From positions 1 to 25,569 of the IMG/VR virus record IMGVR_UViG_3300010389_000118: 25,569 nt of DNA. One strand, 5' to 3'. The translations under genes and the position numbers were made by a program. The notes beneath the pieces were generated by a model. It saw only the letters and a list, made by a program, of their open reading frames with translations, searched no databases and was not told where the DNA came from. This DNA is from a virus. The number at the start of each line of letters is the position of its first letter. Positions within the stretch are counted from its first letter, which is position 1. Shown piece by piece: positions 2,774 through 17,847 of this stretch.

Positions 2774-4714
2774 ATGAGTAACTTAACAAGATCGATGATG
2801 ATGGGTGCTGCTGGAGCAGCAGGTGGTGAAGGGTTGTACGCCGATGACGTGTTTAGCACTTATTTGTATGAAGGAAACGGCAGCACGCAGACAATCACGA
2901 ATGGCATTGATCTGGCGGGTGAAGGGGGATTGGTTTGGATTAAAGGTAGAAACGATATTTTTGACCATTATTTAGTTGACACGGAAAGAGGTGTAACTAA
3001 ATATCTGAAGACTCATACTACAGCGGCAGAGGGCACGTCTTCACCAACCTCAAATGTTACATCTTTTAATTCAGATGGATTTAGTCTTGCAGGGTCAAGC
3101 AACGACACAAACAACCCAAATTCCAAAACCTACGCCTCCTGGACATTCCGCAAAGCGCCTGGGTTCTTTGATGTGGTGACTTATATGGGCGATGGCACAT
3201 CTGGACAAACTGTCAACCACGCCTTAGATAGCATTCCTGGATGCATAATTATAAAAAGAACTGATGGCGCAGGCCTGTGGTTTGTTTACCATAGATCTGC
3301 AGACCCAAATAAATACTTGAGACTTGATTCGACAGATGCAGAAACTAACAATGGAGGACCCGCTTTTTCAGCAATAACATCTTCTTCCTTTACTTTTGAT
3401 AGAACTTATTATAGCGACCTCAATCAGTCAGGTCTAACCTACGTCGCCTACCTATTTGCCCACGACGATCAATCGTTTGGGACAGGTGGTAACGAAAGTA
3501 TTATTAAATGCGACCAATATGTAGGTGCAGGCTCGGGCACTGTAAAGGAAATTGATTTAGGTTTCGAGCCTCAGTGGCTAATGGTCAAAAAATCAGACGG
3601 GGTAGAAAATTGGATGATATTAGACAACATGAGAGGTGTCTCTACTGATGGCAATGATGCTTATCTTGTGCCTAACGAGGTTGACGCCGAGGTTTCTAAC
3701 GCCGATCGTATTCGTTTTACGCCTACAGGATTTCAAGCGTATGTCGGCAACATGACCAATCAGCTGAATGCAAACTATATTTATGTAGCAATCCGCCGTC
3801 CGAACAAGCCGCCCGAGGCTGCAACGGATGTGTTTGCAGTTACTAAAGACAATAACGGCAGTCCTTATACTGTTGGGTTTCCTACGGATGCTTTCCTGTT
3901 CAACATTCTTGGTGGTAACGCATTAAACACTACATTTATGAGCCGCCTAACAGGTGGCGGTAAGTATCTTGTATCTTCCAGTGGGGATGCAGAAGGTTCA
4001 TCAGGATTCGCAGCTTTTGATTTACAGAATGACTTTGATCAAAATATCAGCGCATCAAGCAACATAGGGTATAACCTCCGCCGCGCCCCCGGGTTCTTCG
4101 ACGTGGTGGCTTATACGGGCGATGGAACGTTTGATGGCAGCTATAACGTCAACCACAATCTTGAAGTCACACCAGAGTTTATAATAGCTAAAAGCAGAGA
4201 TTCGATAAACAATTGGAATTGTTATCACAAAGACTTGACTTCCGATACTTATCTTATTTCCCTAAACCTTTCATCGGGTGAAACAAATACTGGTCAGTCC
4301 TGGGGGCCTGCTACCACTACATTTAAGCCCCAATATGCTGGCAATTCGGCCTTTAGTTCAAACCACAGTGGAGTAAACTACATCGCCTACCTGTTCGCAA
4401 CCCTACCCGGCACCAGTAAAGTCGGCAGCTATGCCGGCACAGGTTCTGACATTAATGTTGACTGCGGCTTTACAGCAGGTGCTCGTTTTGTCCTAATTAA
4501 ACGCACCGACTCCACTGGTGATTGGTACGTTTGGGACACTGCTCGCGGCATTGTTAGTGGCAATGATCCCTATTTCTTGCTGAATAGCACTGCCGCCGAG
4601 GTCACAAGTACTGACTACATTGACCCGTTAAATGCTGGATTTACAGTTACATCATCTGCGCCTGCTGCCCTTAATGCGTCAGGTGGCACCTACATCTTCC
4701 TCGCTATCGCTTGA
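2774..4714 (+). CDS. Distal tail-fibre/adhesin protein with six beta-type repeats (DUF7483-like), cassette A
   Basis: This 646-aa protein is built from about six degenerate repeats. Each has a strand such as VVTYTGDG, a short turn, a hydrophobic strand such as PEFIIAKSR or GLVWIKGR, and then an aromatic stretch such as NWYVWDTARG. I think the repeats belong to the cyanophage domain catalogued as DUF7483, but could not search. The N-terminus (about 10-45) contains GAAGAAGGE and LYADDVFSTYLYEGNGS and is shared almost unchanged with the 876-aa protein at 14731; the last 80 or so residues are also nearly identical. Two APGFFDVV motifs (residues 128 and 438 onwards) are encoded with quite different codon choices, the second much richer in G and C. 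No catalytic motif is seen, so receptor or glycan binding is the probable job. Confidence 0.7.
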   Translation: MSNLTRSMMMGAAGAAGGEGLYADDVFSTYLYEGNGSTQTITNGIDLAGEGGLVWIKGRNDIFDHYLVDTERGVTKYLKTHTTAAEGTSSPTSNVTSFNSDGFSLAGSSNDTNNPNSKTYASWTFRKAPGFFDVVTYMGDGTSGQTVNHALDSIPGCIIIKRTDGAGLWFVYHRSADPNKYLRLDSTDAETNNGGPAFSAITSSSFTFDRTYYSDLNQSGLTYVAYLFAHDDQSFGTGGNESIIKCDQYVGAGSGTVKEIDLGFEPQWLMVKKSDGVENWMILDNMRGVSTDGNDAYLVPNEVDAEVSNADRIRFTPTGFQAYVGNMTNQLNANYIYVAIRRPNKPPEAATDVFAVTKDNNGSPYTVGFPTDAFLFNILGGNALNTTFMSRLTGGGKYLVSSSGDAEGSSGFAAFDLQNDFDQNISASSNIGYNLRRAPGFFDVVAYTGDGTFDGSYNVNHNLEVTPEFIIAKSRDSINNWNCYHKDLTSDTYLISLNLSSGETNTGQSWGPATTTFKPQYAGNSAFSSNHSGVNYIAYLFATLPGTSKVGSYAGTGSDINVDCGFTAGARFVLIKRTDSTGDWYVWDTARGIVSGNDPYFLLNSTAAEVTSTDYIDPLNAGFTVTSSAPAALNASGGTYIFLAIA

Positions 4715-4799
4715 TCGGCAAACTATCAGGAACTGGATCCATTACATTCAGTTAATCCCGACGCAGTTTGACACACACTTGATACTTGATTATTGCACT

Positions 4800-5653: not shown

Positions 5654-8600
5654 ATGGGAGTTATAATTCCTCAGGTAATCACATCTGATAGAGCAACTGG
5701 TGCTCAGGTTATTGATGGTAGTTTGAAGTTTGATAGTGGTAAAACTCAATATCTTAGTTATAGTCCATCATCCGGCAATCGTAGAACATGGACTTGGAGT
5801 GGATGGGCAAAGAAAGATGTGACTGGGAGTGTTGTTACTCTTATTGGCACTGGAAGTAGTTTAGATTTAGATGTAATTGATTTCCAAGATGAATGTTTGA
5901 GATACACTCGCTCAACAAGCGGATCTTTCAAAACACTAAAAACTAATGCTGTGTTTAGAGATCCATCTGCATGGTATCATATTGTTGTTGCTGTAGATAC
6001 AACTCAAGGAACTGATGCAGATAGAGTCAAGTTATATGTTAATGGTGTACAACAAACCTCTTTTTCTTCTGCCACATATCCTTCCCTAAATGAAGATACT
6101 TACTTTAACAATACCAGCACTTTCACACTTGGTAGGAGGAATGCAAGTCAAGCAGATTATTGGGATGGATATCAATCAAACGTAACCTTTATAGACGGCC
6201 AAGCACTTGGCCCTGAGTATTTTGGATTTACTGACCCACTCACAAACACTTGGAGACCTAAAAAGTTTAAACCACAAGCAACTCCAAATGATGGAACTAT
6301 TTGGAGTTCTAATAGCACAGGAGTTGCTAATGATGGAACAAGTGCTCCTGCAAATGCTTTTGACGGCAATTTAAGTACACAAGTATATACTTCTGGTGGA
6401 GCAAATTCCGAATTATATTACGATATACCTAATTTAACGGTCAACAGTACAGTTAGAGTTTTTATTGAACAACATTCTGAAACTAATGTATCGTTCTATG
6501 TTATAGATACTAATGATGTTAAATATGAATACTTAACTGCTGCTCCATATGCCAGAAAGTGGGTAGATATTGTAGGTGTTGCAGGTAAAACAATAAAAAG
6601 AATTGGTGCTCAAAGAAATTCTAATGGGCACGGAACTGCTCATTTTGCTTGGGAAATTGATGGTGTTATCCTACTTGATGATGATATCACAAATATGGGC
6701 AAAAATGCCTTCTACCTCCCGATGGATGGAAACTCACCAATCGGTCAAGATAAATCTGGTAGAGGAAACGATTGGACACCAGTAAACTTTGGTGGTTCAG
6801 TATCACTTGATAATCCTATTGTATCTGGTGCAAGACCTATTCTGAATACAATTCAAGGTGGAACTCAGGCAGGAGTTGGTGTATTTGGAAGTAAAGTAAG
6901 TAAGTATTATACGCTCACAGGAAGTAGCAATAGCAGCACTGGTTATGTCTTTGAGAATGAAGGGACAAAACCAACTTTAAGTATGATTAGAGGTGCAACA
7001 CATACTTTTGATTATACATCTGCAACATCACATCCACTCTACCTTTCATCATTAAGTGATGGTAAGCATAATGCAAAGGCTTATAGTGTCTCTTTTGATG
7101 GAACTGGTGATTATTTGAGTATTGGTGCGAGTGCTGATTTTAATTTTGGAACAGGAGATTTCACTATTGAAACTTTTGCATATATCAACAATGTACCAAA
7201 TGGTCCAATAGTTAATAATATTGATAATGGAGGTTTCACAACAGGTGGATTTTCAATCAATGAAGATGGAAATATTTTCGTAGCAAATTCTAGTGGAACA
7301 TTCGCATTATGGGGGAATGTTACCTATCCATCAGGTGAATGGTTCCATATAGCAATGACTAGAAGTGGGACAACAGGTAGAGTTTTTATTAATGGAGTTC
7401 TAAAACTTTCAGTAACAAACAGTACGGATATTGGAACAAGTGGTACAAATGATTTAAACATAGGTGCAAGAAGAGGTGGAAGTAGTGGGGTTGGTAGTCT
7501 CGCATATTATCTTAATGGTTATATCTCCAATCTCCGCATCATCAAAGGAACCGCACTCTACACATCAAACTTCACACTACCAACAACCCTGGAGAATGTA
7601 ACAAATACAAAACTTCTGTGCTGTCAGGATAGTGATGCAACAACAGCAGTTGTTTCTCCTGGTGCAATAACTGCAAATGGTGATGCAGCAGCAACTAATA
7701 CATACAACCCATTCCTTTATGATACTGATGGATACTTTGGTGTAGATACTTCCACATCAAATGTCACCAAGATGACAGTTCCACATTATGCTCCTGATAC
7801 ACTTTACTATTACTGTAATGTTCACTCTGGAATGGGTAATAGTATCAGTATAACAACTGACGAAACCAAAGCAGATCCTTATGCCTGGAAGAATGTTCTT
7901 GGGTTGCCTTTGGTTGGTAGTAGTGCTGATGTAAGTAATCAGATTAATAGTGGAAGCACTACAAAGGCAGTCACAGCAAATGGCAATGCTGCTGCTTCAA
8001 GTGACAAAAGTAACTTCTATGATGGAAGTTTTGAATTTGATGGAACTGATGACAGACTTACATTAGATATTGGTGCAGGTGGTTTGGGTTCTGGTGATTT
8101 TACTATTGAGTTTTGGTCTAATTCTGATACAACATCAGGCCAAAGAGGACAGTTTCAACTTTCTCCTACTTCAGGTGGGTTGCTATCAAGTGCTACTAAT
8201 GCTTTGGGTGTTTATCAGAATGGAACAGGTTTTTATAGAATGTATGTTAATGATAGTGGTAGTGCTGATAGCACAGCACCAAATGATTCAAATAAATGGA
8301 ATCATTTTGCTGTGGTAAGATCTGGTAGCACTCAAAAGATGTATGTAAATGGAATTGAATCTTTAAGTGCTTCTAGCAGTATTGATTATACAACCGCAAG
8401 ATATTTGTGTATTGGAGGATATTTCAGCACAACATATCTTTGGGATGGATACATTCAAGATTTCCGTATTTATAAAGGAGTAGCAAAATACACCAGTAAC
8501 TTCATACCAGCATCAACAAACCCAGATATTCTCCCAGACACTCCATCAGGTGTGAGTGGTAGTTCTAAACTCACCAAGATTACTGATGGTGCTGTGAGTT

Positions 8601-11263
8601 TTGATGGCAGTGGTGATTATTTGACATTAGCAAGTAGTAGTGATTTTACATTTGGAACAAATAATTACACCATAGAATGTTTTGTGTATTATAATGCAAC
8701 TTCTAGTGGTTATGTTTATGATTTTAGAAGTGGTGATGGACAGGCACCTGCACTAGCTATTTCAAATGGTACTCTTTTTGCAGGAGGTGCTGGAAATAAT
8801 ATGACTGTATCTAATGTAATTACAACAGGAAAATGGTATCATATTGCTCTTGTACGAAATAGTAATACAGAAACAATTTATATTGATGGTGTCTCTTATA
8901 ATACGCAGTCAAATGCCAATAATTTAGCACAAACAGGTCTTAGCATAGGAAATAGATTTGCAGCAACTTTTTATTATCATAATGGATTTGTTAGCAATCT
9001 ACGTGTTATAAATGGAACCGCACTCTACACATCAAACTTCACACCATCATCAGCACCACTCACAAATGTAACCAACACAAAACTTCTGTGTTGTCAGTCA
9101 AATACTTCTGCTGGTGCAGCAGCAGTTGTTGGCTTGAATGATGGAAGAATTTGGAGTGATGCCTCTCAAACTAATTTTCTTCCAGGAACTTTTTCTAATG
9201 CATTTGATGATAATGCCAGTTCTTATGCAGAAACTACTGCTACCGATGCCATTGGATCTATTACTTTTGATCCAGTAATACCAATCAGTTCTATTACAAC
9301 CTTTAAAGTAAGTTCTGCCGCAAATGGAAATAATAGTCAGAATTGGGGATTTAATGGTGGTTCTATGACTGCCCGAGTATGTAATGGTGTTACAGATTTG
9401 TCGGATCTTTTACCAGGTAGTGGCAATCTCACTTCATTTGAGGTTCAAAAAACTGGTTCTGGTGTTGCTGCTGTTAATGAGATAGAAATTAATGGTGTTA
9501 GGTTGATTAATGGAGGTGGTTCACTTACAGTAAACGGAAACGCAACAGCAACCAACTTCAACCCATTCAACACTGATATCAACACAGTTCGTGGACAAGA
9601 AACTGGTTATGCTACTTTGAATCCTCTTGATAGTGCCACCACTCTTTCAGATGGCAATCTAACTATCACAGGTAGTGGTACTGCTTTTAAAGGTGTAAGG
9701 AGCACTATTGGATTTTCTAGTGGAAAGTGGTATATGGAATGTATATTAAGAGACTATTCAAGTCCGACATCATCTGCTCCAGGTATCTGGAATGATTCAA
9801 GTAGTAACTTAAACACGGGTGCTGGTTCTTATGCTAATGCTTACTTATTTGTTACCGACTATTCTAGTAATTATAGAATTTATACTAATGCAGGTTCATC
9901 AAACCCGTATTCAGAAACAGGATCTCTTTCTGATGGAGATCTAATTGGTATTGCCCTTGACCTTGATAATGGTAAATGCTATGTACATATTAACGGAATT
10001 TATTTGAATGGGGGGGCATCTGTATACGACACATGGCCTGCTGACACTTATTTCTTTGGAGGTTATGAGTATACATCAGGTAATATACTTGACTTTAACT
10101 TTGGTCAAAAACCCTTCAAGTTCCCACCACCAGAAGGTTTCCAACCACTGAATACTGCTAATGTTCGTCCAGAGACTGTGATTGCTCGTCCTGATCAGTA
10201 TGTTGGTATTGTGACTTATACGGGTAACGGTGCAGCAAGAAGTATTACTACCGGGTTCAAACCTGACTTGGTGTGGGTCAAAAAGAGAGGTTCAACATCA
10301 GATAGAAATGTTATTACTGATAGTGTTAGAGGTGCTAATCTTACTTTAAATAGTGATGATGCAAGAAGTGAGGCATCAGCAACAGAAGCGGGACAAATAA
10401 CTGCTTTTAATGGAAATGGATTTTCTCTTGGTACTAACTCTAATGTAACTGGAAATGGAGATACATTTGTTGCCTGGGCTTGGAAAGCAGGTGGAAACTC
10501 AAACACCTTTAATGTTGATGATGTAGGTTATGCAAGTGCTTCTGCTGCTGGATTAGATAGTGGAAGTATTACTCCTACTGGTGCTTCTGTGAGCACTAAG
10601 AGTGGGTTCTCGATTGTTACTTATACGGCACCTTCGTCTGGCGCTTGGACTGTTGGGCATGGGTTAAACGCTGCTCCTGAATTTATTATCACAAAGAGCA
10701 GGAGCAATACTTACAACTGGGGTACGTATCATGTTGACGTAGGCAACACTGGCAGACTTGATCTTAACAGTACTGGCGCTGTTACTACTACTCAAAATTC
10801 GGCTTGGAATAATACAAGCCCGACATCAACTGTATTTAGTATGGGCAGCGATTGGGCTGGGTCCAGTATCACTTACGTCGCCTACTGCTGGCACGATGTC
10901 CCTGGCCTACAGAAATTTGGCAGTTATTCTGGAAATGGCAGTGCCACAGACGGAACGTTCGTGGAATTAGGATTTAAACCAGCTGTTGTCATAATTAAGA
11001 ACTATATTGGATACACTGAAAATTGGTTGATTTTTGATAATCAAAGAAATAAATTTAATATTGTTGACAATTATCTTCATCCAAATACTTCTGGTACTGA
11101 AGACAATCAATTTTATGACATGGACTTTTTATCTAATGGATTTAAACTCTACAATAATGCAGCAGCAGCAAACTCAAGTGGTAACTCTGCCAAGTACATC
11201 TACGCAGCCTGGGCAGAAGCACCTAGCATCAACTTGTTTGGTGGGGGTGCCAACGCAAGATAA
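5654..11263 (+). CDS. Giant multidomain adhesin: four LamG-like domains, split cupredoxin-like domain, discoidin-like and SPRY-like segments, DUF7483-like repeats
   Basis: An 1869-aa open frame without interruption. Domains by eye: LamG-like 1 (about 22-200); discoidin-like segment (about 215-345, with ANAFDG); a linker with SGRGNDWTPVNF; first half of a cupredoxin-like fold (about 416-475, RGATHTFDY and HPLYLS with H460); LamG-like 2 (479-658, ending KLLCCQ); second half of the cupredoxin (about 685-735, VPHYAPDTLYYYC with C721, H724, M727); LamG-like 3 (792-955); LamG-like 4 (980-1148, again KLLCCQ); a second discoidin-like segment (about 1160-1290); a SPRY-like domain (about 1316-1497, GKWYMECIL, FNFGQKPFKF); and three DUF7483-like repeats (from 1516, 1652 and 1756 to the end). 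LamG, discoidin and SPRY folds commonly bind carbohydrate or protein surfaces, so host attachment is the best guess. No signal peptide is present, as expected for a virion protein. GGAG at 5641 decides the start. Confidence 0.75.
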   Translation: MGVIIPQVITSDRATGAQVIDGSLKFDSGKTQYLSYSPSSGNRRTWTWSGWAKKDVTGSVVTLIGTGSSLDLDVIDFQDECLRYTRSTSGSFKTLKTNAVFRDPSAWYHIVVAVDTTQGTDADRVKLYVNGVQQTSFSSATYPSLNEDTYFNNTSTFTLGRRNASQADYWDGYQSNVTFIDGQALGPEYFGFTDPLTNTWRPKKFKPQATPNDGTIWSSNSTGVANDGTSAPANAFDGNLSTQVYTSGGANSELYYDIPNLTVNSTVRVFIEQHSETNVSFYVIDTNDVKYEYLTAAPYARKWVDIVGVAGKTIKRIGAQRNSNGHGTAHFAWEIDGVILLDDDITNMGKNAFYLPMDGNSPIGQDKSGRGNDWTPVNFGGSVSLDNPIVSGARPILNTIQGGTQAGVGVFGSKVSKYYTLTGSSNSSTGYVFENEGTKPTLSMIRGATHTFDYTSATSHPLYLSSLSDGKHNAKAYSVSFDGTGDYLSIGASADFNFGTGDFTIETFAYINNVPNGPIVNNIDNGGFTTGGFSINEDGNIFVANSSGTFALWGNVTYPSGEWFHIAMTRSGTTGRVFINGVLKLSVTNSTDIGTSGTNDLNIGARRGGSSGVGSLAYYLNGYISNLRIIKGTALYTSNFTLPTTLENVTNTKLLCCQDSDATTAVVSPGAITANGDAAATNTYNPFLYDTDGYFGVDTSTSNVTKMTVPHYAPDTLYYYCNVHSGMGNSISITTDETKADPYAWKNVLGLPLVGSSADVSNQINSGSTTKAVTANGNAAASSDKSNFYDGSFEFDGTDDRLTLDIGAGGLGSGDFTIEFWSNSDTTSGQRGQFQLSPTSGGLLSSATNALGVYQNGTGFYRMYVNDSGSADSTAPNDSNKWNHFAVVRSGSTQKMYVNGIESLSASSSIDYTTARYLCIGGYFSTTYLWDGYIQDFRIYKGVAKYTSNFIPASTNPDILPDTPSGVSGSSKLTKITDGAVSFDGSGDYLTLASSSDFTFGTNNYTIECFVYYNATSSGYVYDFRSGDGQAPALAISNGTLFAGGAGNNMTVSNVITTGKWYHIALVRNSNTETIYIDGVSYNTQSNANNLAQTGLSIGNRFAATFYYHNGFVSNLRVINGTALYTSNFTPSSAPLTNVTNTKLLCCQSNTSAGAAAVVGLNDGRIWSDASQTNFLPGTFSNAFDDNASSYAETTATDAIGSITFDPVIPISSITTFKVSSAANGNNSQNWGFNGGSMTARVCNGVTDLSDLLPGSGNLTSFEVQKTGSGVAAVNEIEINGVRLINGGGSLTVNGNATATNFNPFNTDINTVRGQETGYATLNPLDSATTLSDGNLTITGSGTAFKGVRSTIGFSSGKWYMECILRDYSSPTSSAPGIWNDSSSNLNTGAGSYANAYLFVTDYSSNYRIYTNAGSSNPYSETGSLSDGDLIGIALDLDNGKCYVHINGIYLNGGASVYDTWPADTYFFGGYEYTSGNILDFNFGQKPFKFPPPEGFQPLNTANVRPETVIARPDQYVGIVTYTGNGAARSITTGFKPDLVWVKKRGSTSDRNVITDSVRGANLTLNSDDARSEASATEAGQITAFNGNGFSLGTNSNVTGNGDTFVAWAWKAGGNSNTFNVDDVGYASASAAGLDSGSITPTGASVSTKSGFSIVTYTAPSSGAWTVGHGLNAAPEFIITKSRSNTYNWGTYHVDVGNTGRLDLNSTGAVTTTQNSAWNNTSPTSTVFSMGSDWAGSSITYVAYCWHDVPGLQKFGSYSGNGSATDGTFVELGFKPAVVIIKNYIGYTENWLIFDNQRNKFNIVDNYLHPNTSGTEDNQFYDMDFLSNGFKLYNNAAAANSSGNSAKYIYAAWAEAPSINLFGGGANAR

Positions 11264-13826: not shown

Positions 13827-14723
13827 ATGACCAGAGCAGTAACTATTGCCGAATTAGGCGATCAGAATACATTTGTAGTTGATGGTAATAATCAAAGAGT
13901 TGGTATTGCAAGTGCTAATCCAACAACAACATTAGATGTTGGTGGCACTGTAACAGCAACATCATTTGTCGGTGATGGAACAGGATTAACTGGTGTTGCG
14001 GCCACCGATAATATTATTACAGGAACTGCTGCTACATTCACTGGTGGGGTTACGATTAGTGGTGCTAGTAATGTTAATGTAACTGGTGTTATCACTGCAA
14101 CATCATTTTCCGGTGATGCAACAGGATTAACTGGTATTGCGGCCACCGATAACATTATTACTGGAACTGCTGCTACTTTTACTGGTGGAGTTAATATTAG
14201 TGGTGCCAGTAATATTAATGTAAGTGGTGTTATCACTGCAACATCATTTGTCGGTGATGCAACAGGACTAAGTGGGACACCTGATATCACTGTTAGAAAT
14301 GTCACTGGTGTTGCTGCAACCTTTGCTGGTGTATTGACATACGAAGATGTAACTAATGTAGATTCTATTGGTATTATCACTGCACGATCTGGTATTAACC
14401 TAACAGGTGGTCGTTATACTAATGGTGTAAATGCCATGGGAGCACTGGATGTTAACATGAGTTTAGGTAATTACTTTACAAAGACTATTACCACAGGTAT
14501 CAATACATTTACCTTTAGTAATCCTCCCTCCAGTGGAACTGTTGGTTCATTCACATTAGAATTAACACAAACTGGTGGCACTGCAGATTGGCCAACTGAA
14601 GTTAAATGGCCTGAAGATACTGCACCGACTCTTTCAACGGGCAAAACGCACCTCTTCGTCTTCATTACAGACGATGGTGGATCACGTTATCGTGGTGCTG
14701 CACTTGCTAACTATGTAAACTGA
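13827..14723 (+). CDS. Short repeat-rich tail-fibre protein, cassette D first gene
   Basis: A 298-aa protein with an N-terminal module of the third type (MTRAVTIAELGDQNTFVVDG, then VGIASANPTTTLDVGG). Next comes a stalk made of a 47-residue unit present twice in tandem (about residues 56-149), each holding AATDNIITGTAATFTGG and GVITATSF. The middle module PDITVRNVTGVAATF and YEDVTNVDSIG follows. The C-terminal module contains GNYFTKTI and STGKTHLFVFITDDGG and is nearly the same as in the 220-aa protein of cassette A. Its partner gene, 7 nt downstream, is a paralogue of the cassette A distal protein. So the C-module and the partner type go together. Confidence 0.75.
   Translation: MTRAVTIAELGDQNTFVVDGNNQRVGIASANPTTTLDVGGTVTATSFVGDGTGLTGVAATDNIITGTAATFTGGVTISGASNVNVTGVITATSFSGDATGLTGIAATDNIITGTAATFTGGVNISGASNINVSGVITATSFVGDATGLSGTPDITVRNVTGVAATFAGVLTYEDVTNVDSIGIITARSGINLTGGRYTNGVNAMGALDVNMSLGNYFTKTITTGINTFTFSNPPSSGTVGSFTLELTQTGGTADWPTEVKWPEDTAPTLSTGKTHLFVFITDDGGSRYRGAALANYVN
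13992..14273 (+). repeat. In-frame tandem duplication of 141 bp
   Basis: Two adjacent copies (13992-14132 and 14133-14273) of a 47-codon unit beginning GGTRTTGCGGCCACCGATAA. They differ at scattered, mainly third-codon positions. A partial copy of the unit's last part precedes them (about 13941-13991). The repeat changes fibre length without breaking the frame. Confidence 0.85.
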
Positions 14724-14730
14724 GGTTAAT

Positions 14731-17361
14731 ATGGATCCGATTACTTTTGGAATAACACTAGGTGCGGCTGGAGCAGCAGGTGGTGAAAAGTTGTACGCCG
14801 ATGACGTGTTTAGCACTTATTTGTATGAAGGTAATGGTAGCACACAAACGATCAGGAATGGGATAGGACTGGTGGATGGCGTGAACATTCTCCCTGGCAC
14901 TGCATTAGGGGGAGGCTATTTCGCTGGATTTATTAGCCAAACGGCTGATGGTAATGCAACACATGCGCTAATTGTTGCACCTGCGGCTTCTGGTTACAAC
15001 GGCAAGACAACGTTGCAATGGAAAACATCACAAACCAGCACTTCCGGCACTACCAGCGAATATGATGGTGCTGCCAATACTGCTAACATGGCTGATGCCA
15101 ATCATCCCGCCGCTAATTACTGTGCGGGTTTGACGATTGGTGGCTATAGCGATTGGTATTTGCCTGCACGATATGAGCTTGAGATTGCGTATTACAATTT
15201 GAAACCAACCACTACAAGCAACAACACTGGTTTCGGTACGAATAGCTATGCCGTACCGCAGCGTGGGTCGAATTATACGGCAGGAAATCCAGCGCAGACA
15301 AGCGTTGCTGCCTTTCAGAGTGGTGGTGCAGAAGACTTTATTGCGACCAACCACTGGTCGTCCACGGAGGGCAGCTCCACGGCCGCATGGAAGCTGGTCT
15401 TCAGTACTGGCAACCAGGTCGCCGACGGCAAGACGAGCGCCCTCTACGTTCGTGCCTTCCGCAAAATTGCGATCAACGATTCCCTCCTTGATCCTTATCG
15501 CGTAACAGGTGAAGGTGGATTGGTTTGGATTAAAAATAGAGAAAATGCGTTTCAAGATAACGCACTTTTCGATACTGAAAGAGGTGCTGGTTATGTTTTA
15601 TCTTCAAACACGACGGGTGCTCAATTCCTTAGCACTAGTAGATTAAGTGCGTTAAATTCCAATGGATTTACGGTTGGAGGTGATACTGCAACTAATGAAT
15701 CTGGTAAGGCTATTGTCTCCTGGACCTTCCGCAAAGCGCCTGGGTTCTTTGATGTAGTTACTTATACGGGTACAGGTAGTGCCAGAACTGTTGCACATAA
15801 CTTAGGTAGTGTGCCGGGGATGATAATGATCAAAAATCTTGACAATTCAGGTCCTTGGTGGGCTGTTTATCACCATAGCCTTGGAAATCAAGTTTTATAT
15901 TTAAATGAAACCACTGCAGTACAGCCAGCAGGTGCAATGTGGGATAACACCACTCCAACTTCTTCAGTATTTACAGTTGGTACTCCATCTAATGTTAACA
16001 CGTCTGGAGAAAATTACGTCGCCTACTTGTTCGCCCACGACGATCAATCGTTTGGCACGAATGGTAACGAAAGTATTATTAAGTGTGGTGAATGGACGGG
16101 CAATGGCACAGTAAATAATGCGACAACCGAACAGCCTGGGCCGGAGATTAACTTGGGCTGGGAGCCTCAGTTTGTGTTAATCAAGAATGCTTCCGCTACC
16201 GGCGATTGGTGGATATTCGACACCATGCGCGGCTTTGTAGTAGATGGAAATGGTGTTCAGTCCTACCTATATACGAACACCAGCGCAGCCGAGGGCACAA
16301 TCGGAGGTAGCTTCCAATACCTTAAGCTAACTTCAACCGGATTTAAGATCACAGCGGGTACAGGTGCTTATTTTAATGAATCAGGCAATAAGTACGTCTA
16401 CATGGCAATCCGCCGTCCGCATAAGCCGCTTGAGGCTGGTACGGATGTGTTTGCTATAGATACATACGGTGGCACTGCTCCTACGCCACCCACATGGAAT
16501 TCTGGGTTCCCTGTTGATTGGGGTTGGTATAAATACTCTAATCAAGCAAATGAGTGGGCAACCGGCACTCGTTTATTGCAGGGAAAAAAGATTGTACTGA
16601 ATACGACTGCTGCAGAAACTAGCGACGGCGCCCATGTGTTCGATTACCAGAATGGATGGCTAAATAATACCGGCACTTTATCTACGCTTTATAGTTGGAT
16701 GTTCCGCCGCGCCCCCGGCTTCTTCGACGTGGTGGCTTGGATTGGTGACAGTCAAGCTACGGGTGCAGACGGTAAAAAAATTCAACCTCACGGGCTTGGT
16801 GTAGCGCCAGAACTCATACTTATGAAAAATAGGACCAACACATGGGATTGGTGGAGCTGGCACAAAGACCTTACCTCTTCCGCTACTAGGCAAGAATACG
16901 CCATTCGATTAAATTTAAGCGATGCAGAGATTGAGCTTCATAGCGCTGGCACTGGTCCTTTGCTTCCTGATGCGGATAATTTTTATTTAGCATCTGGAAC
17001 TCAATTAAATCAAGCTGGTTATCCTTATATTGGCTACCTCTTCGCAACTCTTCCTGGCATCAGCAAAGTCGGCAGCTATACCGGCACAGGTTCTGACATT
17101 AATGTTGACTGCGGATTTACTGCAGGTGCTCGATTTGTTTTAATTAAACGAATGGATGCCAGTGGTGATTGGTACGTCTGGGACACTGCTCGCGGCATTA
17201 TTAGTGGCAATGATCCGTACCTTCTGATTAACTCCACCGCTGCCGAAGTCACAAGTACTGATTACATTGACCCGTTAAATGCTGGATTTACAGTGACATC
17301 ATCTGCTCCTGCTGCCCTCAACGATAGTGGCGGCACCTACATATTTTTAGCAATTGCATAA
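14731..17361 (+). CDS. Distal tail-fibre/adhesin with DUF7483-like repeats and an inserted DUF1566/Lcl-type domain, cassette D
   Basis: An 876-aa paralogue of the 646-aa protein at 2774. It shares the N-terminal LYADDVFSTYLYEGNGS block (21-37), the later repeats (SFGTNGNESIIKC, RRPHKPLEAGTDVFA) and a nearly identical C-terminal 80 residues (GSDINVDCGFTAGARFVLIK). The main difference is about 210 residues (48-258) inserted inside the first repeat, between NGIGL and GEGGLVWIK, which are adjacent in the 646-aa protein. The insert contains GGYSDWYLPARYELEI (137-152), HWSSTEG (208-214) and YVRAFRKI (239-246). This is the signature of DUF1566/Lcl-type domains, which have a C-type-lectin-like fold. 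The part near 15350-15470 uses markedly more G and C than its surroundings. The protein is probably a receptor-binding protein with an added lectin-like head. Confidence 0.75.
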   Translation: MDPITFGITLGAAGAAGGEKLYADDVFSTYLYEGNGSTQTIRNGIGLVDGVNILPGTALGGGYFAGFISQTADGNATHALIVAPAASGYNGKTTLQWKTSQTSTSGTTSEYDGAANTANMADANHPAANYCAGLTIGGYSDWYLPARYELEIAYYNLKPTTTSNNTGFGTNSYAVPQRGSNYTAGNPAQTSVAAFQSGGAEDFIATNHWSSTEGSSTAAWKLVFSTGNQVADGKTSALYVRAFRKIAINDSLLDPYRVTGEGGLVWIKNRENAFQDNALFDTERGAGYVLSSNTTGAQFLSTSRLSALNSNGFTVGGDTATNESGKAIVSWTFRKAPGFFDVVTYTGTGSARTVAHNLGSVPGMIMIKNLDNSGPWWAVYHHSLGNQVLYLNETTAVQPAGAMWDNTTPTSSVFTVGTPSNVNTSGENYVAYLFAHDDQSFGTNGNESIIKCGEWTGNGTVNNATTEQPGPEINLGWEPQFVLIKNASATGDWWIFDTMRGFVVDGNGVQSYLYTNTSAAEGTIGGSFQYLKLTSTGFKITAGTGAYFNESGNKYVYMAIRRPHKPLEAGTDVFAIDTYGGTAPTPPTWNSGFPVDWGWYKYSNQANEWATGTRLLQGKKIVLNTTAAETSDGAHVFDYQNGWLNNTGTLSTLYSWMFRRAPGFFDVVAWIGDSQATGADGKKIQPHGLGVAPELILMKNRTNTWDWWSWHKDLTSSATRQEYAIRLNLSDAEIELHSAGTGPLLPDADNFYLASGTQLNQAGYPYIGYLFATLPGISKVGSYTGTGSDINVDCGFTAGARFVLIKRMDASGDWYVWDTARGIISGNDPYLLINSTAAEVTSTDYIDPLNAGFTVTSSAPAALNDSGGTYIFLAIA

Positions 17362-17364
17362 TCT

Positions 17365-17847
17365 ATGGAAATTCGTGATCGTGAAACAGGTAATGTCATT
17401 ACAACTGATCAACTGAGAAAGAAATATTGGAATGTAAGTTTTCCTGAGAGAATCACAAGTGATATTTTGAATGATTATGGTTATGATCCAATTCTAAATG
17501 GACCTCAGGCATCAGTCTCAGGTCCTTATGAAACAAGTGTTCGTAAGGGTATAGAAGAAATTAATGGTCAATGGTTCACTAAGTTCGTTGTAGGACCAAT
17601 TTTTAATACTCCAGAGGAGGAGATTGAATATAAGAATAGGATTGATAATTCCGCAACTGAATCTATAAGATCAACTCGTAATAACTTATTGAAACAGAGT
17701 GATTGGACACAGATACCTGACTGTACTGTGGACAAAACTGTCTGGGCAGAGTATAGACAACAACTTCGTGACATATCCAATCAAGAGGGATTTCCTCATG
17801 ATGTTGTCTGGCCTGAAGAACCACAAATAACTAGAAAAGTGGGTTGA
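17365..17847 (+). CDS. Tail-assembly-chaperone-like protein (Phage_tail_APC type C-terminus)
   Basis: A 160-aa protein starting 4 nt after the last adhesin gene. The C-terminal part (about 100-152) has the pattern RNNLLKQSDWTQIPD, then WAEYRQQLRDI and FPHDVVWPEEP. This pattern is typical of the phage tail assembly chaperone family found after tail-fibre genes in many phages. The N-terminal part (1-95) includes TDILND-like and EINGQWFTKFVVGP segments that I cannot place. As the only gene of this type after four cassettes, it may help fold or attach all the fibres, or only those of cassette D. Non-virion status is inferred from the family. Confidence 0.7.
   Translation: MEIRDRETGNVITTDQLRKKYWNVSFPERITSDILNDYGYDPILNGPQASVSGPYETSVRKGIEEINGQWFTKFVVGPIFNTPEEEIEYKNRIDNSATESIRSTRNNLLKQSDWTQIPDCTVDKTVWAEYRQQLRDISNQEGFPHDVVWPEEPQITRKVG

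Follow-up and report, generated by a model that had tools for sequence, protein, structure and literature searches.

A Cyanophage Tail Fibre with an Internal Lectin Domain That Bears the Imprint of a Diversity-Generating Retroelement but Has No Cassette beside It

Introduction

According to passages of PMC6642488, DUF1566 is the commonest Pfam domain among the targets of diversity-generating retroelements (DGRs). The variable regions (VRs) of such targets are described in passages of a survey (PMC8144416) as near-universally C-terminal, probably because their cis elements then lie in intergenic DNA, and the same passages state that remote targets would escape the survey's approach. Remote targets are known from cyanobacteria, where they lie exclusively near gene 3' ends, and the genomes of Synechococcus and Prochlorococcus are reported as being without DGRs, both according to sections of PMC7517822. 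In tentaclin genes, a VR near the gene 5' end is diversified by an active DGR, as stated in an excerpt of PMC10743442. The subject of this article is an Lcl_C (formerly DUF1566) domain within an 876-aa tail fibre encoded by the IMG/VR virus record IMGVR_UViG_3300010389_000118, a contig of 25,569 bases that was analysed whole and is called the window below. This feature is well supported as a DGR-variable lectin domain that occupies an internal socket of a cyanophage fibre and stands apart from a DGR cassette.

The top named relatives of the record are T4-like cyanophages, foremost Synechococcus phage Bellamy (Kyanoviridae; 17% query coverage, 79.8% identity). The full genome of the virus is probably about 200 kb, of which the 25.6-kb record would be a fragment, so the absence of a gene from the record is uninformative on the remaining genome.

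The Lectin Domain Inserted in the Fibre

The 646-aa and 876-aa open reading frames (ORFs) of the window are collinear two-repeat proteins of the DUF7483 family (PF24299), and their alignment shows one long gap, between NGI-L and GEGGLVWIK, just where the initial annotation of this DNA had placed an insert of about 210 residues. Counted from these flanking motifs, the insert comprises 212 codons where the 646-aa paralogue has a single residue; the annotated start, 14872, holds, and the annotated end, 15504, is one codon short of 15507. The insert sits within the first DUF7483 repeat, the PF24299 match of the 876-aa protein (308.5 bits; Pfam cut-off, 27) picks up again at aa 263, and neither join interrupts the reading frame.

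The DUF1566/Lcl lectin-like identity proposed for this segment is borne out by its PF07603 (Lcl_C) scores, which are 40.8 bits for the whole protein and 44.1 bits for the insert alone (cut-off, 34.9), and the motifs named in support of it, YSDWYLP, HWSSTEG and VRAFR, are all present. An AlphaFold2 model of 14860-15504 alone, built with 46 relatives, reached a pLDDT of 90.6. The sole match of a PDB sequence search with the insert was 8q4e, the C-terminal domain of Legionella Lcl (E 4.4e-8), which is also the best structural match of the model (Foldseek E 9.8e-5; VIA Z 12.8, rmsd 3.3, 124 aligned residues), ahead of 4eps, a fimbrial protein of Bacteroides (Z 11.5), and of numerous C-type lectins (Z 6-8). 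The insert is thus confirmed as an Lcl_C domain with a predicted C-type-lectin-like fold. For DUF7483 itself, the search for a known fold gave a top VIA Z of 5.3 and no Foldseek match at E <=0.001.

The base composition of the insert is also distinct, with 51.6% GC compared with 45.6% in the remaining ORF and 40.6% in the window. A GC-richer part had been pointed out near 15350-15470, and the segment 15337-15465 indeed has 61.2% GC and 20.2% A; just 0.2% of the 129-bp windows of the record are as GC-rich.

Relatives with Complete Retroelements

The insert is most closely related, with a top identity of 76%, to Lcl_C proteins that other phages encode and in which the domain is C-terminal or stands alone. 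In its 80 closest viral relatives in IMG/VR (loci L014-L093), the Lcl_C ORF ends at or close to query residue 201 in all contigs that extend that far, and six of them (L016, L032, L037, L040, L041 and L063, including two near-identical pairs) have a DGR-type reverse transcriptase (RT) gene just downstream. In the four pairs of template and VR that were aligned, 22/22, 25/25, 23/23 and 20/21 substitutions fall at template adenines (90 of 91 in total). The DGR of L016 is complete, with a variable protein, bAvd (PF22296), template and RT.

An Adenine Imprint in the GC-Rich Patch

Compared with the L016 template, positions 15336-15465 of the window mismatch at 24 of 47 adenines and at 10 of 83 other bases (Fisher p=2.0e-6), and compared with the L037 template, the window VR differs at 23 of 44 adenines and 13 of 85 other bases (p=1.5e-5). 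With the more distant templates of L032 and L040 the adenine bias is weak (p=0.02 and 0.06, respectively). There is no adenine bias in the reversed comparison, nor in the domain upstream of the VR (window against L016, 0.30 versus 0.30).

The same imprint is seen at the level of codons. Between the window VR and the L016 template, 14 of the 16 codons that have changed their amino acid retain the third base, compared with 9 of 38 upstream (p=1.9e-5), and because third bases are kept at changed codons, the imprint is not merely a matter of surface-residue change. Relatives with the signature likewise keep the third base (L017, 15/16; L028, 18/20; L037, 17/20), and those without it do so far less often (L033, 5/20; L021, 3/24; L071, 7/27; L076, 5/22; L079, 4/20); L025, which is without the signature, is intermediate at 11/24, and L014 (13/19), L019 (11/19) and L046 (13/20) are in-between cases. 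Moreover, 12 of the 14 variable template codons end in C in the window, compared with 22% C elsewhere in the insert (p=8e-7). In similarity to the L016 template at non-adenine bases, the window VR is second among the sequences compared, behind the VR of L016 itself, in a ranking (of variable codons and non-adenine bases) that left out sequences without a full VR end. The composition of the window patch also resembles that of the L016 VR (60.6% GC, 18.9% A; the L016 template has 48.1% GC and 36.4% A).

Mismatches concentrated at adenines, together with the retention of third bases, mark 15337-15465 as DGR-written. As judged from sequence comparison with the template of a related complete DGR, the GC-rich patch is therefore template-copied DNA, which is what the initial annotation had supposed.

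Distribution of the Reverse Transcriptase Among Lcl_C Relatives

In L016, the Lcl_C gene is separated from the chaperone gene by the Avd gene, template and RT, and in L014 and L015 a stand-alone Lcl_C gene is flanked by a fibre gene and a chaperone gene, with no RT among the three. These layouts indicate that the RT has probably been lost, or gained, repeatedly around the Lcl_C domain. The genes that precede the stand-alone Lcl_C genes of L014 and L015 encode the same type of C-terminus as the gene upstream of the 876-aa fibre gene in the window. Among Pseudomonas phages matching the insert, an RT was present in three of the six tested, and it is also present in Haboob and phPA-G; PMBT3, the phage-collection match of highest identity to the insert (40%), is without an RT and without a repeat. 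A plasmid search gave no match. A bacterial donor was considered and rejected, in that ten loci in bacterial genome contigs included none with Lcl_C or an RT and are taken as chance matches.

In addition, two stand-alone Lcl_C genes, at 7953-8621 of L017 and 5714-6328 of L028, carry a strong DGR imprint and have no RT in their records; they are candidates for frozen or remote DGR targets.

The Insertion Point as a Socket

IMG/VR was searched with the fibre, the insert and the junction, and 173 DUF7483-like ORFs in the fetched loci were inspected. These comprise 101 unique ORFs with both flanking motifs and 59 without a usable motif pair, the others being duplicates, including L001, the window's own copy. 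Exactly one residue stands between the flanking motifs in 96 of the 101 ORFs, and inserts of 212-237 aa stand at the identical point in the other five, namely the window (Lcl_C), L230, L281, L284 and L301. Pfam finds Laminin_G_3 in the inserts of L230, L281 and L301, and not in that of L284. By eye, L192/L327 and L295 also carry inserts there, that of L192 being laminin-G by Pfam; a flanking motif is missing, so they stand outside the 101 counted. An AlphaFold2 model of aa 1-567 is confident in its DUF7483 parts (aa 21-47 for the most part, and 261-560), and in this model the insertion falls in a loop between strands 39-42 and 263-269. With various domains at one exact point, this DUF7483 fibre loop is, on the evidence of the sequences compared, a plug-in socket that takes laminin-G-like domains too, and since the insertion point recurs in other phages, the insertion in the window is not due to chance.

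The Roseobacter-phage relatives, which are the top matches in the phage collection, align only from about aa 258 on and are insert-free. Because the insert-free state is the commonest, the insert would most simply be a gain and thus a derived state, in agreement with the insertion envisaged in the initial annotation.

Other fibres arrange similar parts differently. The 1071-aa DUF7483 fibre at 3959-7171 of L295 has an insert of roughly 450 aa without an assigned fold, seemingly starting at the same socket. Within the window, a 1869-aa ORF at 5654-11263 encodes four laminin-G-like stretches followed by a DUF7483 domain, i.e., the same two modules in another arrangement.

The Same Junction in Other Contigs

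Among 245 Lcl_C ORFs in the loci examined, that of the window is the only complete one embedded in DUF7483. At least two further phage contigs, from other data sets, have the same Lcl_C 5' junction. One of them, L057 (4,298 bp), ends within the variable segment. In the other, IMGVR_UViG_3300010389_000012 (66,495 bp), one end carries the 5' portion of a gene of this kind, and the opposite end carries a DUF7483 3' portion that fits it, with the same chaperone-like gene behind; the two end pieces are probably one gene split by the contig ends. One end of this contig is 91.2% identical to the junction DNA of the window (14792-14939, 148 bp), and the contig also matches the 3' end of the gene for the 646-aa protein (4082-4716), with 91.3% identity over 635 bp. 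The sole phage-collection match of its 20-kb end piece is the siphovirus S-CBS4, over 566 bp. Fibre DNA of such identity in a contig with this S-CBS4 match suggests an exchange of fibre modules between cyanophage families; such modules have probably passed from one kind of cyanophage to another.

Search for Template, Reverse Transcriptase and Other Parts

The initial annotation had also entertained a DGR at this locus. No RT gene, and no template repeat or near-repeat of the VR, was found in the 25.6-kb record, itself a fragment of the genome, and as neither is present in the sequence at hand, the locus is not classed as a DGR. The VR lies at aa 203-245 of 876, i.e., not near the 3' end of its gene. 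No Avd was noticed among the window ORFs, of which no Avd profile search was made; Avd is not present in all DGRs. The post-VR motif TAATYCTTTAATYCTTT, found by eye in all six RT-bearing loci, is absent after the window VR, where coding DNA occupies (also by eye) the place that the 3' motif has in DGR loci.

Beyond the record, the RT profile found nothing in seven cultured Kyanoviridae (Bellamy, S-SM2, S-BM3, SynMITS9220M01, S-CAM3, S-RIM50 and Syn10) or in S-CBS4 and S-EIV1, with both positive controls matching, and the Lcl_C domain is also absent from all of these. The 66.5-kb IMGVR_UViG_3300010389_000012 has no RT (the L016 control matched) and no template-like pattern at <=3 mismatches. 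A search of IMG/VR for a template of the window's own lineage with exact patterns matched L016/L014 and L016/L037/L041 only, and a template scan of 176 loci ranked those of L016 and L037 at the top.

Two further traces were looked for and rejected. The linker NDSLLDPYRV as read-through of a former 3' non-coding DGR motif was not significant in most of 20 comparisons, with single comparisons of linker DNA and 3' motif giving 0.009 (L016), 0.024 (L030), 0.026 (L022) and 0.077 (L037). Contig breaks as a sign of hypervariability were no commoner here, in that the final ~130 bp of the domain contain three of 80 downstream contig ends, much as neighbouring bins do. The CGCA-AAAT-TGCG hairpin after the VR is weak (z -1.31).

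Gene Map of the Window

The features under discussion are collected in Table 1. Next to the fibre array lies a NUMOD3 homing-endonuclease-like gene (65-799), and a 238-aa ORF at 803-1519 matches PHROGs families named ferrochelatase, in the auxiliary-gene category, with no Pfam match at E 0.001. An Rfam search of the window gave nothing above cut-off.

Table 1. Positions of the fibre genes and of the parts of the insert-bearing fibre gene in the window.
Feature	Position	Strand	Evidence
876-aa tail fibre, DUF7483 with Lcl_C in first repeat	14731..17361	+	PF24299 E 6.8e-92; PF07603 E 3e-10; PHROG tail fibre/structural matches
Insert: 212 codons, Lcl_C/DUF1566 domain and ~10-residue linker	14872..15507	+	Paralogue alignment, Pfam, AlphaFold2, 8q4e match
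Imprint of DGR-type VR, GC-rich, last beta strands of lectin domain	15337..15465	+	Template-adenine mismatches, codon tests, base composition
Insert tail IAINDSLLDPYRVT, running back into DUF7483	15466..15507	+	Absent from relatives, which stop about there
N-terminal DUF7483 part (LYADDVFSTYLYEGNGSTQTIRNGIGL), 5' edge of socket	14791..14871	+	Flanking motif, junction comparisons
Rest of first and second DUF7483 repeat, 3' side of socket	15508..17358	+	Pfam; AlphaFold2 model
646-aa paralogue without insert (empty socket)	2774..4714	+	ORF, Pfam, alignment
Fibre gene upstream of 876-aa gene	13827..14723	+	ORF list; C-terminus type compared with L014, L015
Tail-fibre assembly chaperone-like gene after fibre	17365..17847	+	PHROG tail fibre assembly matches

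Origin of the Lectin Head

The explanation that we favour, and hold to be probable, is that of a captured, DGR-shaped Lcl_C head in a DUF7483 fibre socket that is now probably fixed. In another phage, the Lcl_C domain would once have formed the variable C-terminus encoded by a DGR target gene, and a T4-like cyanophage would have captured the whole domain, in frame, in the socket loop of its DUF7483 fibre. The last ~130 bp of the domain were, on this explanation, written by mutagenic retrohoming from an adenine-rich template that was close kin of the L016 and L037 templates, which also explains the GC-rich patch. The insert would most likely act as an exchangeable receptor-binding head, and laminin-G-like domains may act likewise at that point in related fibres. 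At present the insert is most likely a fixed DGR-shaped head, because no template, RT or Avd adjoins it and coding DNA is in place of the 3' motif.

Several points weigh against this explanation. The templates compared, those of L016 and L037, come from other viruses, and the direction of transfer is drawn from parsimony only. The geometry of the socket comes from a model only, in which the insert (aa 48-260) has a pLDDT under 50, poorly predicted because the alignment for that run held no relatives of the insert; receptor binding by the insert, although most likely, is putative. The non-adenine bases of the window VR are unexpectedly near those of the L016 template (84% identity in one comparison, in which the L014 VR has 73%, and 88% in another, in which the rest of the window domain has 70% identity to L016), which suggests that the VR was written fairly recently rather than frozen long ago. 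In addition, since the 5'-placed VRs of tentaclins are diversified by an active DGR (excerpt of PMC10743442), internal position is no proof of inactivity.

These last two points also speak for the VR still being rewritten in trans, by an RT and a template that lie in another part of the ~200-kb genome or come from a co-infecting DGR phage, as does the imprint of L017 and L028, which likewise have no RT in their records. Remote DGR targets are moreover known in cyanobacteria, and contig surveys are blind to them (passages of PMC7517822 and PMC8144416). However, the cyanobacterial remote targets are described only near gene 3' ends, and the genomes of Synechococcus and Prochlorococcus are reported to be without DGRs (sections of PMC7517822); a relative of a DGR RT was found in none of the seven cultured Kyanoviridae, the 66.5-kb contig with the same junction has neither RT nor template-like match at <=3 mismatches, and TAATYCTTTAATYCTTT is absent after the VR. 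Rewriting in trans is accordingly a rather unlikely explanation, and slightly less probable still is the fuller version of it, in which the socket is common to cyanophage families and a DGR located elsewhere in the genome, or one that a co-infecting phage carries, goes on rewriting the internal VR in trans.

The other explanations are far less probable. An ordinary Lcl_C domain that had never met a DGR, its GC-rich end recombined from a GC-rich donor, would accord with the absence of an RT from 74 of the 80 relatives in the stretch examined and with PMBT3, which at 40% identity heads the phage-collection matches and has neither RT nor repeat. It is disfavoured as improbable, in that a GC-rich donor would not predict a concentration of mismatches at template adenines or the retention of third bases at changed codons, hardly any window of the record matches the patch in GC, and the known VR of L016 has a like GC and A content. 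An assembly chimera of a fibre gene and an unrelated Lcl_C gene would accord with a metagenome contig and with a complete Lcl_C-in-DUF7483 ORF that occurs once among those examined; it is very improbable given a frame that is open through both joins, a 5' junction that recurs in two contigs from other data sets, with 91.2% identity over 148 bp across the join in one of the two, and four other inserts at the same point. Finally, the occurrence of other domains at this site means that gain and loss may alternate, so that the insert could be ancestral and lost from the 646-aa paralogue; with 96 of the 101 both-motif ORFs insert-free, and Roseobacter-phage relatives that align only from aa 258 or nearby, we give this little credence. 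A captured DGR-shaped head, now probably fixed, thus remains the explanation preferred here.

Comparison with Known Systems

A search confined to the open PMC literature yielded nothing on an Lcl_C or DGR domain inside a DUF7483 fibre, and the term DUF7483 was without a match in it. The locus illustrates how a binding domain made by a DGR can part from its cassette and find new use as an interchangeable head on the fibre of another phage, and the socket provides a concrete rule for the point at which probable receptor-binding domains are exchanged in marine phages. If the VR were still rewritten, internal cassette-less VRs would be missed by surveys that seek VR, template and RT side by side, and T4-like cyanophages would have a diversifying receptor head outside the 3'-end rule, in a site of domain swapping.

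The feature shares its domain, the position of the VR within it and the adenine-restricted differences with the Lcl_C targets of DGRs in Pseudomonas phages LPPA56, SC_8_H2H8_2017 and Cruim01 and in L016, L032, L037 and L040. Unlike those targets, the window domain is internal, with ~617 residues after it, and has no adjacent template, Avd or RT. Tentaclins resemble it in being phage proteins with a DGR-type variable lectin domain that is not C-terminal; as described in the excerpt cited above, they combine lectin and Ig-like domains within a complete DGR cassette, whereas the window has Lcl_C in a DUF7483 fibre and no cassette. The variable proteins of remote cyanobacterial DGRs, according to the same sections of PMC7517822, are likewise lectin genes far from the RT, but they are placed at the 3' ends of genes, in genomes with a DGR of their own, and no DGR is known in the genome of the window.

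Marine-phage DUF7483 fibres, including the laminin-G-like L230, L281, L301 and L192, have the same scaffold and the same insertion point as the window. They differ in carrying no insert or a concanavalin-A-like one, whereas the window carries a C-type lectin. Lastly, the C-terminal domain of Legionella Lcl (8q4e) shares both its fold and a sequence match with the insert; it belongs to a bacterial adhesin (NCBIfam: collagen-like adhesin Lcl), whereas in the window the domain stands in a phage fibre.

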